From NCBI GenBank assembly GCA_024330215.1, contig JANDLU010000003.1, positions 57,074 to 121,073 of the forward strand: 64,000 nucleotides of DNA, given 5' to 3'. This DNA comes from Candidatus Gaiellasilicea maunaloa (GTDB lineage Bacteria > Actinomycetota > Thermoleophilia > Gaiellales > Gaiellaceae). Below the pieces are notes generated by a model that did not search any database, had not been told where the DNA came from, and saw only the letters and a program-made list of their open reading frames with translations. Within the stretch, counting starts at the first letter, position 1. Each line of letters starts with the position of its first letter. The translations under genes and the position numbers were made by a program. Positions 9,530-43,244 of this stretch are shown here, in pieces.

Positions 9530-10966
9530 ATGACCTCGATCCTGCCACCCCGCTATCGGCAGCCCGAGCGCATCGCGCGGGGCGGCATGGGCGAGATCTT
9601 CCGCGCCGAGGACGGTGTGCTCGGCAGGATCGTCGCCGTCAAGGTGCTCGCGGAGCGCTTCGCCGACGAGGAGGGGATCCGGCGCCGCTTCACGCACGAG
9701 GCGCTCGCGGCCGCACGGCTCTCGAACGCCCCGAACACGGTCACGATCTTCGACGTCGGCGAGCACGACGACCGGCCGTACATCGTCATGGAGTATCTAC
9801 CCGGAGGCTCGCTGGCCGATCGCCTCGAAGCCGAGGGCGCCCAGCCGCCGGGGCGCACGCTCGCATGGCTCGGGCAAACAGCCGCCGCGCTCGATGCCGC
9901 GCACGTCGCCGGGGTCGTGCATCGCGACGTCAAGCCCGCCAATCTGCTCTTGGACGACGAGGGCAACGTACGAGTCGCCGACTTCGGGATCGCAAGCGCT
10001 GTCGGCCTCGACTCGTTCACCGCCGCCGGAACCGTGCTCGGCACCGCCGGCTACCTCGCTCCGGAACAGGCACGAGGCGAGCAGGCGACATCCTCGAGCG
10101 ACCGCTACGCGCTCGCCGTTGTCGCGTTCGAGTTGCTCACGGGCGAGCGGCCGTTCGCGATGGACTCCCCGACCGCCGAGGCGGCCGCACATGTCCACGG
10201 CCCGATCCCGAACGCCTCCGACCGGAACCCGGAGTTGCCGACCGAGGTCGACGCGGTCCTCCTCCAGGGACTCGCCAAGGAGCCGGAGCGACGGTTCGCG
10301 GCGTGCGCCGACCTCGTCCACGCCCTACGCGACGCGCTCGACGCGGCCGCCGGTCATACGACAGTCGGCGCCGTCCCCGCGGTCGAGCGGCAGCGGAGCC
10401 GCAGCCGGCTCCCGCTCCTCGCGGCGGCCGTGACCGCGCTCGCGCTCGGCGGCGTCGCGCTCGCAGCAGTGCTCGGCGGCGAGGATCCTGTCGAGAACGC
10501 GGTCGACTCGGGTCCGCGCACCGTCAAGGAGACGGTGACCCTCGGGGGTACGACGATCGTCGAGACCGTGACGACCGCCCCCGAGCCGGAGCCCACGACC
10601 GAGCCGCCGCCCACCACCGAGCCGCCGCCCACCACCGAGCCGCCGCCGACAACCGAGCCGCCGCCGACGGAGCCCTCGGGCGACCCCTCGGCACTGAACG
10701 ACCAGGGCTTCGCGCTGATGCAGGCCCGCGACTACGACGGCGCGTTGCCGCTGCTCGAGCAGGCTGTGGCGGGCCTCGCCGGCTCGGGCAGCACCACCGA
10801 GGCCTACGCGAGCTACAACCTCGCCTTCACGCGGCTCGCACTCGCGCACTGCGACGGCGTGCTCGACCTGCTCGACCGCTCGGAGGCGGTTCAGGGCGAG
10901 CGCAAGGAGATCACCAGGCTGCGCCGAGAGGCCGAGCGGAACTGCGGCGGCGGAGGCGACGACTAG
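9530..10966 (+). CDS. Ser/Thr protein kinase with TM segment, Pro/Thr-rich repeat linker and TPR-like C-terminus
   Basis: ATG at 9530: YRQPERIARGGMGEIFRAED; HRDVKPANLLL; VADFGIAS; APEQ; linker TTEPPPTTEPPPTTEPPPTTEPPPTEP; C-terminal ALNDQGFALMQARDYDGALPLLEQAV. Confidence 0.92.
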   Translation: MTSILPPRYRQPERIARGGMGEIFRAEDGVLGRIVAVKVLAERFADEEGIRRRFTHEALAAARLSNAPNTVTIFDVGEHDDRPYIVMEYLPGGSLADRLEAEGAQPPGRTLAWLGQTAAALDAAHVAGVVHRDVKPANLLLDDEGNVRVADFGIASAVGLDSFTAAGTVLGTAGYLAPEQARGEQATSSSDRYALAVVAFELLTGERPFAMDSPTAEAAAHVHGPIPNASDRNPELPTEVDAVLLQGLAKEPERRFAACADLVHALRDALDAAAGHTTVGAVPAVERQRSRSRLPLLAAAVTALALGGVALAAVLGGEDPVENAVDSGPRTVKETVTLGGTTIVETVTTAPEPEPTTEPPPTTEPPPTTEPPPTTEPPPTEPSGDPSALNDQGFALMQARDYDGALPLLEQAVAGLAGSGSTTEAYASYNLAFTRLALAHCDGVLDLLDRSEAVQGERKEITRLRREAERNCGGGGDD

Positions 10967-37664: not shown

Positions 37665-38279
37665 GTGAAGCGCTACGACCAGTACTGCCCCGTCGCCCAC
37701 TCGCTCGGCCTCGTCGGCGAGCGCTGGTCGCTGCTCGTCGTCCGTGACCTCATCGACGGCCCGAAGCGCTACACGGACCTCGTCGAGGGGCTGCCCGGAA
37801 TCGGCACGAACATCCTCGCGTCACGACTCAGGGACCTCGAGGCCGGCGGAATCATCCGGAAGACGAAGCTGCCGCCGCCGGCGGCCTCTACGGTCTACGA
37901 GCTGACGGAGTGCGGCCACGACCTCCGGCCCGTCCTCCACGAGCTCGCCCGCTGGGGAGCGCGTACGCTCGGCCCGCCGCCGCTCGATGCGCTCCGGCCC
38001 GGTTGGCTCAAGAACGCGCTCCAGATCGCACTCTCACCCGTCGCGAACGAAGGTCGGCTCGCCTTCCGGGTCGGCGAGGAGGAGGCGTCGGTCGTGGACG
38101 GCCAGTCGTCGGCCGGGATCGTCGCGGACGCGGACGTCCTTGTCGAGACAGACGCCGCGGGCTTCTACCACTTGCTCGTGAACCGCGAGCTCGAGGGCGT
38201 GCGGGTGGAAGGCGACGCGGAGCTGCTCGAGCGCGTCGTGAACGCGGTTGCGACCCAGCCGCTTCCCGCGTCCATCTGA
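37665..38279 (+). CDS. HxlR family transcriptional regulator
   Basis: YDQYCPVAHSLGLVGERWSLLVVRDLIDGPKRYTDLVEGLPGIGTNILASRLRDLEAGGIIRKTKLPPP. Confidence 0.9.
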   Translation: MKRYDQYCPVAHSLGLVGERWSLLVVRDLIDGPKRYTDLVEGLPGIGTNILASRLRDLEAGGIIRKTKLPPPAASTVYELTECGHDLRPVLHELARWGARTLGPPPLDALRPGWLKNALQIALSPVANEGRLAFRVGEEEASVVDGQSSAGIVADADVLVETDAAGFYHLLVNRELEGVRVEGDAELLERVVNAVATQPLPASI

Positions 38280-38287
38280 CGCTGCGC

Positions 38288-38740
38288 CTACTCGGCCCGT
38301 CGCGGCACATCGTAGATGAACCAGAGCTGATCGCCTGTCTGCGAGCCCGTAGGAGCCTGGGCGGTGATCTGTCCGATGTCGGGGTACTCGGCGACCTCGG
38401 GCGAGCCGAGGGTGGAAACCACGACGAACCGTGCAGGACCGTCCGTCTCGTTCGTCAGCCCGTGCGCGCCGTCAGGCCCGACTGGAAAGTGAACGACATC
38501 GCCTTCGGAGAGCATCTTCGTGCCTTCCGAGGTGCGCAAACTCGGACGGCCGTGGAGGACTACCAGGAGTTCCTCCCACCGATGATGGAAGTGGTAGACG
38601 AGGAAGTTCCCAGGATCGAGCTCATAGACGGTCGCGCCCAAACCGTCGCCTCGGGGCAAGCGTTTGCTCCGGCCTCCGCCGCCCGACCAGTCATCACCCT
38701 GCTCTCCCCACTCGTCCGACCAGATGTTGCTGTCGGTCAT
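38288..38740 (-). CDS. cupin domain protein
   Basis: LGATVYELDPGNFLVYHFHHRWEELLVVLHGRPSLRTSEGTKMLSEGDVVHFPVGPDGAHGLTN. Confidence 0.88.
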   Translation of the reverse strand: MTDSNIWSDEWGEQGDDWSGGGGRSKRLPRGDGLGATVYELDPGNFLVYHFHHRWEELLVVLHGRPSLRTSEGTKMLSEGDVVHFPVGPDGAHGLTNETDGPARFVVVSTLGSPEVAEYPDIGQITAQAPTGSQTGDQLWFIYDVPRRAE

Positions 38741-38795
38741 GTGCGCAATCTACGCCCGCCACCCTCGTTCACCTAACCTCGCTCGCGCGGAGCGC

Positions 38796-40109
38796 TTACG
38801 CGGCCGGCGTCTTCGAGGCCTCCCGCCTGAGCAGCTCCCAGGCCAGCCGCACGTCCACTTCGGTCGTACGCGCGCTCCCGACCGCGAGCCGCAGCACGTA
38901 GCGACCGTTCAGCCTCGTGTGCGAGAGGAAGATCTCGCCGCTTGCGTTGACGCGCTCGAGGAGCGCCTCGTTCTCCTCGTCCGAGCCCTCACGTCGAAAG
39001 CAGACGAGCGAGAAGGGGCGCGGCGCGGCGAGCTCCCAACCGGGCTCCTCGCGCACCCAGCCCTCGAAGAGCCCGGCGAGCCGAACTGCCTCGCGGATCC
39101 GCTCCTGCAGCCCCTCGCGGCCGTAGCAGCGCAGGACGGCCCAGAGCTTGAGCGCCCGGAAGCGGCGGCCGAGCGCCGGGCTGTACTCCGAAAGGCTCGC
39201 CACCTCCTCGCTGACGCGCAGGAACTCGGGGACGAGTCTGAAAGCGGCGCGCAGGTCCTCCGGCCGGCGTGTCCAGAGAGTCGAGCAGTCCATCGGCGTC
39301 AGGAGCCACTTGTGGGGGTTGACGACGATCGAGTCGGCGCGGTCCCAACCGGCGAAGTGATGACGCAGCTCGGGACAGACCGCCGCCGAGCCCGCATACG
39401 CGGCGTCGACATGCAGCCAGACGGACTCCCGAGCCGCTGCGTCCGCGACCGCAGCGACGGGATCGACAGAGCTCGTGGACGTCGTCCCGACCGTGGCCAC
39501 GACGGCGCAGGCGGCGGTGAGGTCGAGCTCGTCCAGCCGGATCCGGAAGCCGTCGTCCACCGGCGCCTTGCGCAACTCGAGCTCGAGGAGGCGGCAGGCC
39601 TTCTCGACCGACGAGTGCGCGTGCTCGGAGCAGACGACGACCCGGGCGCCCGGCTTCGCGTGGCGGGCAGCCGCGAGCGCCGCCATCGTCGCCGTCGAGG
39701 CGGTGTCCTCGATGTGGCCGTGCAGGCCGGACGGAAGGCCGAGCAACTGTGCGAGCCAGTCGAGCGTCAGCTCCTCCAGCTCCTGCAGCGCCGGCGAGGT
39801 ACGCCAGAGGATTCCGACCTGGTTCAGTCCCGCTGCGAGGAGCTCCGCAAGGATCCCCGGCTCGGAGGCGGTCGCGGCGAAGTAGGCAAAGAAGCGCGGG
39901 CTCTGCCAGTGCGTGAGCCCCGGCAGGAGGACGTCGTCGAGGTCGCGGAGGACGTTCGCGAACGGCTCGGCCTGCTCGGGCGGCGAGGCCGGCAGGCGCG
40001 AGCGGATCTCGCCCGGCTCCACCTGCGCGAGCACCGGCAGCTCGCCGACGCGCTCGAGGTAGGAGGCGACCCACTCGAGCGCGGCGGCGCCGTCCTCGCG
40101 AAAGCTCAC
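38796..40109 (-). CDS. PLP-dependent aromatic-L-amino-acid decarboxylase family protein
   Basis: LTHWQSPRFFAYFAATASEPGILAELLAAGLNQVGILWRTSPALQELE; HVDAAYAGSAAVCPELRHHFAGWDRADSIVVNPHKWLL (PLP lysine). Confidence 0.92.
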   Translation of the reverse strand: MSFREDGAAALEWVASYLERVGELPVLAQVEPGEIRSRLPASPPEQAEPFANVLRDLDDVLLPGLTHWQSPRFFAYFAATASEPGILAELLAAGLNQVGILWRTSPALQELEELTLDWLAQLLGLPSGLHGHIEDTASTATMAALAAARHAKPGARVVVCSEHAHSSVEKACRLLELELRKAPVDDGFRIRLDELDLTAACAVVATVGTTSTSSVDPVAAVADAAARESVWLHVDAAYAGSAAVCPELRHHFAGWDRADSIVVNPHKWLLTPMDCSTLWTRRPEDLRAAFRLVPEFLRVSEEVASLSEYSPALGRRFRALKLWAVLRCYGREGLQERIREAVRLAGLFEGWVREEPGWELAAPRPFSLVCFRREGSDEENEALLERVNASGEIFLSHTRLNGRYVLRLAVGSARTTEVDVRLAWELLRREASKTPAA

Positions 40110-40435
40110 GCGTCGTCCGCCGGCAGCTCCAGCGCCACTGTGGCGGCGGTTGATGAGCGCCCGTCCTGGATCGTCGCGATCACAACGCGATCCTCGTCTT
40201 CGTAGACGTCGTAGACGATGATCATCCATCGCCACGGGCCGAGCACGAAGCGGAAGCCTTCCCACCCGCGGGCCTCGAGCCCAGCCCCCTCGAGCGCAGT
40301 CCCGAGTCGAGGAAAGCGGCCGAGCGACCGGATCGAGCGTCTCACGCGAGCATTGGTGTCCGCGGGCAAGCGGTGAGTGACGCGAAGGCGCGCGAGATCC
40401 TCGGCCGCCGCCGGGCTGACCTCGACACGCGCCAT
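40106..40435 (-). CDS. ParE/RelE-like toxin
   Basis: MARVEVSPAAAEDLARLRVTHRLPADTNARVRRSIRSLGRFPRLGTALEG...GPWRWMIIVYDVYEDEDRVVIATIQDGRSS: ParE-superfamily pattern. Confidence 0.75.
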   Translation of the reverse strand: MARVEVSPAAAEDLARLRVTHRLPADTNARVRRSIRSLGRFPRLGTALEGAGLEARGWEGFRFVLGPWRWMIIVYDVYEDEDRVVIATIQDGRSSTAATVALELPADDA

Positions 40436-40437
40436 TG

Positions 40438-40695
40438 TCAGAGGTCTTCGAGCGAAATCGTCCGACCCGACCGACCCTGTTCGCGCCCGAGGTTCGCCCG
40501 CTCCAGAGCGCCAGGAATGCCGTCGAGCAACTGGACCATCGTCTCGGCATCGAGGTCGGCCTCGTCGATAGCGCGCGTGAGGAGCGAGCGTGCGAGCGTC
40601 CCCTGCTGCGTGTACGCGCGCTCGGCCATCCGGCTGAGCTTCTCCGCATGCTCGCCGTCGAGGGTGACGTTCAGCCGAGTCGCTCGCTCCGCCAT
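40438..40695 (-). CDS. RHH/CopG-like antitoxin
   Basis: MAERATRLNVTLDGEHAEKLSRMAERAYTQQGTLARSLLTRAIDEADLD; directly upstream of the ParE-like gene. Confidence 0.75.
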   Translation of the reverse strand: MAERATRLNVTLDGEHAEKLSRMAERAYTQQGTLARSLLTRAIDEADLDAETMVQLLDGIPGALERANLGREQGRSGRTISLEDL

Positions 40696-40735
40696 TCCCG
40701 GAGCGTACACGACCGGCCACGAATCGTGCAGACCG

Positions 40736-40793
40736 TCACTTGCGGAGCTTCTCGATCTCGGCCCACGGGCGCGTGTTCAGGATCTGCTCTTCG
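40736..40793. repeat. duplicate of polX 3' end (copy 1, relic)
   Basis: TCACTTGCGGAGCTTCTCGATCTCGGCCCACGGGCGCGTGTTCAGGATCTGCTCTTCG; minus strand encodes EEQILNTRPWAEIEKLRK*. Confidence 0.85.
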
Positions 40794-41358
40794 CAGCTAC
40801 ACCCGACGCGCCTGCGCGGTCCCATCCCGACGCTCCGAACGGCAGCGCCTCGAGCTCCCGCCAGCGTTCGGGCTCATACTCCTCGAGCAGGGATGCGGCG
40901 CCGATCGAACAGGCCACCGGCAGCAGCGGCGTCAGTCGAGTGCGCACTCGTTCGAGGCTGATCGCCACCCGCGCAAAGCTAGCGATCGTCGCATGCGGCA
41001 CGGGCTCGTCGAACGCGCCTCCGTAGGGAGGAGTGTCCGGATAGCTCTTCCATAGACTGCGCATCGACTCCTTCAGCTCGCCCTGCGGCTCGGGAGCGAC
41101 GTATGCGACGACGTCGGGGAATTCCTCAACCCTCACAAGCGCGAACTGGAGCGGCGCGCGTTCGGCGAAGAATCCGAGCAGACCGTCGACCAACTCTGGC
41201 GTGACCGCTCCACGGGGAACGAACGGATGGAGCAGCGTGAGATGCAGACCGATGCGAGCTGCCCCTGCCGGATCGAGTTCGGCTCGCGCCTCAGCAACAG
41301 CCGGAGCGGCGTCATCGAGCATCAGCGAGATTGCCGTGCGAGGCGGTGACCCGCTCAC
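40777..41358 (-). CDS. 2'-5' RNA ligase / 2H phosphoesterase-like protein
   Basis: VSGSPPRTAISLMLDD...RIGLHLTLLHPFV (HxTL) and EPVPHATIASFARV (HAT-type second H motif); GTG start overlaps polX TGA. Confidence 0.75.
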   Translation of the reverse strand: MSGSPPRTAISLMLDDAAPAVAEARAELDPAGAARIGLHLTLLHPFVPRGAVTPELVDGLLGFFAERAPLQFALVRVEEFPDVVAYVAPEPQGELKESMRSLWKSYPDTPPYGGAFDEPVPHATIASFARVAISLERVRTRLTPLLPVACSIGAASLLEEYEPERWRELEALPFGASGWDRAGASGVAAKSRS

Positions 41359-41413
41359 TTCAGAAGCTTCTCGATCTCCGCCCACGGGCGCGTGTTCAGG
41401 ATCTGCTCCTTCG
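41355..41413. repeat. polX 3' end (copy 2, in the intact gene)
   Basis: TCACTTCAGAAGCTTCTCGATCTCCGCCCACGGGCGCGTGTTCAGGATCTGCTCCTTCG; encodes KEQILNTRPWAEIEKLLK*. Confidence 0.85.
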
Positions 41414-43064
41414 AGAGCCACGCGCGCCGGGCCTGCGCGATCCCGAGCTCGACGTAGCCGAGCGCGCCGGTGGAGTGGCCGTCGCTCGAGACGACGAGCG
41501 TCAGGCCAGCCTCGCCGGCGAGCCGCGCGTTCGCGTCGCGGAGGTCGAGCCGGTCGGGCTGCGAGTTGATCTCGAGGAACGTGCCTGTCGCGAGGGCACG
41601 CTCGACCACGCGCTCGACCGCGATCGTCGAGGGCAGGCGCTTGCCGATCTTACGGCCAGTCAGGTGGCCGATGCAGTCGACGTGCGGGTTCTCCAGCGCC
41701 GCGAGCACGCGGCCCGTCGGATCGTTCTCGAAGCTCGAGTGCACCGACGCCATCGCCCAGTCGAGCTGCTCGAGCAGCTCGTCCGCGAGATCGAGCTCGC
41801 CGTTCGCGCGGATGTTCACCTCGATCCCCTTCAGGATCCGGAAGGGCGCGAGCCACTCGTTCAGCGCGTCGATCTCCTCCCACTGGCGCTCCAGCCGGCC
41901 CTCGCGCAACCGCTGCGAGTGGTCGCACATCGCGAGGTAGTCGTGCCCGAGCTCGCGTGCCGCGAGCGCCATCTCCTCGATCGTCGCCTTCCCGTCCGAC
42001 CAGGTCGAGTGCGAGTGGAGGTCCCCGCAGAGGTCGGCGCGCTCGACGAGCGTCGGCAAGTTGCCCTCGCGCGCGGCCGCCAGCTCACCGCCGTTCTCGC
42101 GCAGCTCGGGCGGGATGAACGCGTAGCCGAGATGCGCATAGACGGCCTCTTCGTCCTCGGCGCTGAAGACCTCGCCGGTCTCGGTCGTCGTGATCCCGTA
42201 CTCCGACACGGAGAAGCCGCGCCTGACGGCCTCCTCGCGGAGGGCGACGTTGTGCTCCTTGGAACCCGTGAAGTGCTGGAGCAGGTTCCCGTACGACTCG
42301 GGCGGAACGACGCGGAGGTCGAAGCGGAGACCGTCGTTCGAGATCACCGTTGCCTTCGTCTCGCCCTTGGCGACGACGTCCGCGACCCAGACGAGCTTCG
42401 TGAAGTAGTCGATCAGGGCGGGCGGATCGGTCGAGGTGGCGATGAGGTCGAGGTCGCGGAAGGTCTCGCGGCGCCGGCGTACCGAGCCGGCCTCGGAGAC
42501 CTTCACCGCGGCCGGATGCTCGCGGAGAACGGAGACGACGGCGAGCACCGCCGGCAGGCCCGCCCCCAGCAGGCGGCGCGACTCGCGCGGGTCCTTCGGC
42601 GTCTCGGCGAGCGCCTTCAGGATCTTCGCCTCGGTCGTCGCTCCCAGCCCGGCGAGCGTGCGCAGCCGCTCGCCCTCGGCCGCGGCCTTCAGCTCCGCGA
42701 CGGTCGTCACCCCGAGCTCCTGCCAGATCCGCCGCGCGGTCTTCGGGCCCAGGCCGGGCAGGTGCATGAAGCGGACGACCTCCTCGGGAATGAGCGCCTT
42801 CCTCTTCGTTAGCGCCTTCATCTCCCCGAGCTCGACCACCTCGACGATCTTCCCTTCGATCGTGGCGCCGATCCCGGCGAGGCTCTTGGCCTTGCCGTCG
42901 AGCGCGAGCTGGGCGACCGGGCCGCCGGTCTCGCGGATCCGGGTCGCCGCGCGCCGGTAGGCGAGCACGCGGAACGAGCTCTCGCCCTCGAGCTCGCTCA
43001 GATCGGCCAGCAGCTCGAGCTGCGCCGCGAGCTCGTCGTTCCTCGGCAGGGTTGCAGAGCTCAC
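41355..43064 (-). CDS. polX: DNA polymerase/3'-5' exonuclease PolX (Pol X + PHP)
   Basis: LPGLGPKTARRIWQELGV; SVRRRRETFRDLDLIATS; PHP domain GDLHSHSTWSDGKATIEEMALAARELGHDYLAMCDHSQRL. Confidence 0.95.
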   Translation of the reverse strand: MSSATLPRNDELAAQLELLADLSELEGESSFRVLAYRRAATRIRETGGPVAQLALDGKAKSLAGIGATIEGKIVEVVELGEMKALTKRKALIPEEVVRFMHLPGLGPKTARRIWQELGVTTVAELKAAAEGERLRTLAGLGATTEAKILKALAETPKDPRESRRLLGAGLPAVLAVVSVLREHPAAVKVSEAGSVRRRRETFRDLDLIATSTDPPALIDYFTKLVWVADVVAKGETKATVISNDGLRFDLRVVPPESYGNLLQHFTGSKEHNVALREEAVRRGFSVSEYGITTTETGEVFSAEDEEAVYAHLGYAFIPPELRENGGELAAAREGNLPTLVERADLCGDLHSHSTWSDGKATIEEMALAARELGHDYLAMCDHSQRLREGRLERQWEEIDALNEWLAPFRILKGIEVNIRANGELDLADELLEQLDWAMASVHSSFENDPTGRVLAALENPHVDCIGHLTGRKIGKRLPSTIAVERVVERALATGTFLEINSQPDRLDLRDANARLAGEAGLTLVVSSDGHSTGALGYVELGIAQARRAWLSKEQILNTRPWAEIEKLLK

Positions 43065-43083
43065 TGCGGGACGACCACACGCT

Positions 43084-43189
43084 GCCGGGGCGCGCCGCCC
43101 GCGTGCGATGCAAGGACGCAGGGAGCGGCGATAGCAGCGCTATCGCCGCGACTGAGGACGCCGCAGCGTGCCGGGCGGCGCGTCCCGGC
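43084..43189. repeat. nested palindromic element
   Basis: Outer arms 43084-43101 and 43172-43189 (18 bp, one G:T), inner arms GCGGCGATAGC/GCTATCGCCGC at 43125-43135/43139-43149. Confidence 0.8.
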
Positions 43190-43244
43190 GGCCTGTGCTT
43201 CGTTCCGAAGGGAGCTCCTAGCCACTTCCCGCGATGATACGGAG

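Follow-up and report, generated by a model that had tools for sequence, protein, structure and literature searches.

The window analysed here, a 64-kb stretch of DNA, comes from a genome assembly, taken to be metagenome-derived, of Candidatus Gaiellasilicea maunaloa (3.85 Mb, 200 contigs, 97% complete, 5% contamination estimate). In this window an intact polX gene is separated from its usual downstream partner, a decarboxylase gene (AADC), by a predicted 2H phosphoesterase gene, a second copy of the polX 3' end (tail 2) and a putative toxin-antitoxin pair. All genes discussed lie on the minus strand. The features are as follows.

41355..43064, minus strand: intact polX (DNA polymerase/3'-5' exonuclease PolX, 569 aa; NCBIfam NF006375, 463.9 bits, cut-off 426)
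41355..41413, minus strand: polX 3' end, copy 1, functional (from the sequence; 54-nt core at 41355-41408)
40777..41358, minus strand: predicted 2H phosphoesterase gene (2'-5' RNA ligase-like, 193 aa; PF13563, E 1.7e-18)
40777..40832, minus strand: extension of the 2H reading frame into tail 2, out of the polX frame (from the alignment with homologues)
40736..40832, minus strand: polX 3' end, copy 2, or tail 2 (54-nt core at 40736-40789 at 93%, the rest decayed)
40438..40695, minus strand: putative RHH-type antitoxin gene (85 aa from the ATG; 74% amino acid match in G045, the genome of a relative in the family)
40106..40435, minus strand: putative ParE-type toxin gene (109 aa; PF05016, 23.7 bits, cut-off 23; 67% match in G045)
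40110..41354, minus strand: whole interposed block (not present at the empty site of genome G048; gap of 1245 nt vs a 4-nt overlap)
38796..40109, minus strand: AADC (PLP-dependent decarboxylase), usual partner downstream of polX (93% amino acid identity in G048)

PolX shares 93% amino acid identity with its counterpart in G048, the closest relative among the genomes compared, which belongs to the same genus. The NCBIfam decarboxylase matches of AADC are partial, and the PF18090 match of the RHH protein is weak and below the cut-off.

A preliminary description of this DNA had reported two copies of the polX end in the same orientation, and we confirmed both copies and their positions. Positions 40736-40789 and 41355-41408 are identical at 50 of 54 nucleotides without gaps (BLAST E 5e-18). 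The second-best 54-mer match to the polX tail in the window reaches 31/54, and nowhere else in the window do non-tandem direct repeats of 40 nt or more lie within 3 kb of each other. The repeat is longer than first noted: homology continues to about 40832, giving a 100-nt alignment (84%, 3 gaps; 40736-40832 vs 41355-41454) in which the upstream 36 nt show 67% identity vs 93% over the last 54 nt. The upstream part of tail 2 carries two 1-nt deletions, and in the polX frame a TGG has become TAG. Tail 2 is therefore a decaying polX fragment that has lost the capacity to encode the PolX end. Changes specific to tail 2 are spread unevenly along it (Fisher p 0.006), and simple neutral decay does not account for this pattern.

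The gene between the two polX ends is bounded as previously described: its GTG start overlaps the polX stop (GTGA), and its stop lies within the second copy in another frame. Both HxT/S motifs (HLT and HAT) are kept in the sequence and in the alignment, and the gene product is a member of the 2H phosphoesterase family, a predicted enzyme. Most homologues in the alignment (n = 13) stop a few residues at most from LPFG. The window protein runs past LPFG with GASGWDRAGASGVAAKSRS, about 16 extra codons; most of these residues are encoded by tail 2 in a frame other than that of polX, and a TGA inside CCTGAAC of tail 2 serves as the stop. The 2H gene and the polX fragment therefore join at about the 2H stop codon, and the stop falls inside the duplicated tail because the 2H gene's own end was lost. 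The gene is thus without a stop of its own and has borrowed a TGA from tail 2. Within the family, 2H genes are scattered over 33 of 103 genomes, and the closest one found (49% identity) does not lie near polX. A search of solved structures gave no match for 2H, and a search of Rfam was likewise negative.

We compared this junction with that of G048, where polX ends in ...AAGTGAGCTTTCGCGAGG and shares a GTGA with AADC, the GTG start of AADC overlapping the stop of polX. On either side of the junction the two genomes remain collinear, save for a 165-nt insertion upstream of polX. AADC is the next gene after polX in 55 of the 69 polX loci of the family, and the two overlap by 1 or 4 nt in 46. The source genome is the only one in which AADC starts 1245 nt past polX (at 40109), and here the AADC GTG overlaps the ParE stop (GTGA). 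Because polX and AADC normally overlap and lie 1245 nt apart here, the block includes RHH-ParE and extends down to 40110. The interposed block is 2H, tail 2, RHH and ParE, which is larger than first noted. Neither 2H, RHH nor ParE stands between polX and AADC in the other family polX loci (69 loci examined), and a second polX tail is unique to the source genome among them. The original proposal, that an insertion at the end of polX duplicated this gene end, is supported by this same-genus empty site and by the overlapping polX-AADC pair found family-wide. Relatives had been expected to show polX followed directly by RHH; instead AADC follows polX, and RHH-ParE belongs to the insert.

Other family loci with a gap between polX and AADC have 5-148 nt there. 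None of these gaps holds 2H, RHH or ParE, and no second polX tail occurs in those gapped loci whose tails were searched. Two genomes of genus g3 (L006 1350-1500 and L024 3184-3259) have 76-148 nt at the polX-AADC junction with a GGGGAAACC palindrome; these gaps are small non-coding insertions at the same junction. The block has GTGAGC at each end, but these 6 nt were rejected as evidence of a target duplication, since the gene overlaps already require the GTGA.

Other differences and repeats were seen in the window. The 165-nt insertion (43056-43220) is a near-perfect palindrome directly upstream of polX that is missing at that spot in G048. It has about two dozen other diverged matches in the genome (71-85% identity), forms a very stable hairpin (z −7.7) and looks like a member of a MITE/REP-type repeat family. 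Downstream, at 38252-38795, G048 has AADC, then a 5'-nucleotidase-like gene, then an HxlR-type regulator; in the window the place after AADC is taken by a short cupin-like gene (38288-38740) and the nucleotidase is absent, a second indel nearby. Units of 18 nt repeated in tandem at 10572-10668, as four overlapping 43-nt copies, probably encode a proline/threonine-rich linker.

RHH and ParE genes lie adjacent as a pair in G045 and at other loci in unrelated neighbourhoods; L103, L110 and L104 are the loci at which the pair is kept together. Each RHH start is closely preceded by a TANNNT box, a hint that the module may have its own promoter. In the window this box lies ~30 nt after tail 2, which places the module immediately downstream of the polX stop in tail 2. 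Third-position GC content (GC3) is 0.73 for 2H, 0.83 for RHH and 0.81 for ParE, vs 0.95 for polX and 0.92 for AADC. The repeat brackets 2H only, not RHH-ParE.

There are 4 differences between the tails in the 51 nt of the coding core (3 synonymous, 1 nonsynonymous); each tail differs from G048 at 5 positions, and other genera differ at 6 at least. This core is too short to tell which tail is native. Synonymous divergence (dS) between the tails is ~0.33, from only 11 sites, vs 0.38 for the whole of polX between the source genome and G048. These values fit two same-genus polX genes that may have diverged before they met, with an old duplication as the alternative. The earlier suggestion of recombination with a diverged polX is thereby plausible, the tails being about as far apart as each is from the congener.

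We consider it rather probable that the locus is a recombination scar at one operon junction, probably formed in two steps, the later of which would have brought in a foreign polX-2H fragment from a congener. In what may have been the earlier step, a self-promoted RHH-ParE module would have entered exactly at the overlap of the polX stop and the AADC start, sparing both genes. A short fragment with a congener's polX 3' end followed by the 2H gene would then have been added. The polX end of this fragment would have undergone homologous recombination in the resident polX end, and its other end, cut in the last 2H codons, would have been joined illegitimately ~97 nt before the polX stop. If the fragment had closed to a circle, a single crossover in the polX end would give this arrangement; a linear fragment may have reached it by homology-facilitated illegitimate recombination. 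The product would read, in order, recombinant polX, 2H, the illegitimate joint, a partial polX end and the old downstream genes. In such a product polX would be complete, 2H would stand in translational overlap with it and would presumably be expressed from the polX transcript, and the old tail, displaced downstream and decaying, would supply the 2H stop codon.

Evidence counted for this scar comprises the empty site, the conservation of polX-AADC in the family, the uniqueness of tail 2, its decay, the truncated 2H gene and the lower GC3, together with the RHH-ParE pairs found in unrelated contexts elsewhere. Against it, a donor with polX followed by 2H was not found in the family, order or class, nor in plasmids (distant matches only), phages (none) or viral contigs (none). 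The shortness of the repeat, the uneven decay of tail 2 and the metagenomic nature of the assembly also weigh against it. Both routes have precedents. In laboratory E. coli, single crossovers of recircularised fragments were scored as duplications in 56 of 60 clones, and the 14 clones sequenced had 109-950 bp of the homologous gene end duplicated (PMC3240628). Homology-facilitated illegitimate recombination has been proposed for displaced 3' ends of T6SS effectors in Vibrio cholerae (PMC5361080).

The same end product would result if 2H had been inserted into polX ~97 nt before its stop in a single step, with the target stretch copied during break repair or by some unknown process, without a foreign polX, and with the copies diverging later. 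The pattern of H. pylori restriction-modification genes named insertion with long target duplication is of this kind, as far as the citing paper describes it (Nobusato 2000, cited in PMC1643837). Tail 2 also has more private changes than copy 1, as would an unconstrained duplicate. We nevertheless regard a single step as unlikely, the core differences being mostly synonymous, as they would be had both copies spent some time evolving as polX, although the numbers are small. The same order of parts is predicted if the polX end was first duplicated locally in tandem and 2H was then inserted separately between the copies. This sequence of events is very improbable: it needs two precise events and does not explain why the 2H stop was lost exactly where the copy begins. 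We likewise give little credence to an assembly artefact that joined two strains. The sequence is metagenome-assembled, with the contig number and contamination estimate given above, but both flanks are collinear with G048 and the stretch contains no Ns. The junction of 2H and tail 2 has private indels seen in no polX examined, and this decayed junction is unlikely to be assembler-made.

The layout also resembles integration at a gene end with the gene regenerated. The polX 3' end could then be an att site, with 2H or the whole block as a minimal element between attL and attR. The 1245-nt block, however, holds only the 2H, RHH and ParE genes and no recombinase gene; the repeat flanks only part of it, and repeat divergence is uneven. 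Pattern searches found no further copy of the polX tail in the genome or, outside polX, in the family, and none in viral contigs, and other cargo between polX and a copied tail occurred in 0 of 69 loci. We therefore hold site-specific integration to be highly doubtful. The cassette-style insertion envisaged in the preliminary description is not supported: the insert has no recombinase gene, and 1.15 Mb of the genome yielded no further example. A scan of these 1.15 Mb for copied gene ends returned 16 short-range repeats. The two closest look-alikes (L156 and L157), inspected closely, proved to be ordinary paralogous neighbours, most other matches look like paralogues or within-gene repeats, and no other copied gene end was recognised around an unrelated gene. 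It is far-fetched to see in the polX 3' end a recurrent, recombinase-free cassette site at which congeners would trade small tail-anchored genes, polX staying intact and the new genes riding on its transcript.

Our data indicate that the locus clearly bears the scar of a known type of one-off recombination and is not a new mobile element. It is a natural, well-bounded example, with its empty site, of a single gene hung on a conserved operon without a mobile element and with the target left whole, and the scar has lent this gene another stop codon and a short, new C-terminus. The example adds modestly to what is generally known. Insertion with long target duplication, as outlined for H. pylori in the paper that cites it, is alike in placing a foreign gene between long direct target repeats, with an empty site in a relative. 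Here, G048 provides the empty site, and the target repeat stands on both sides of 2H (54-nt core at 93%, extending to ~97-100 nt). By comparison with that account, the cargo here is 2H beside a toxin-antitoxin pair, the target is a gene end, the repeats are diverged and the phylum is another. The recircularised fragments in E. coli gave a similar product, a gene-end copy of ~100 to 950 bp beside foreign DNA with illegitimate end joining; that case was a laboratory selection with a plasmid, whereas this one is natural (PMC3240628). In the route proposed for the Vibrio T6SS effectors, too, a new module is anchored by homology and the old 3' end is displaced with the downstream genes, but here the target product is essentially unchanged and the cargo is unrelated to the target gene (PMC5361080). 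The RHH-ParE pair resembles other chromosomal modules of its kind, which are adjacent, patchy and found in varied contexts, and differs in lying exactly between the normally overlapping polX and AADC.
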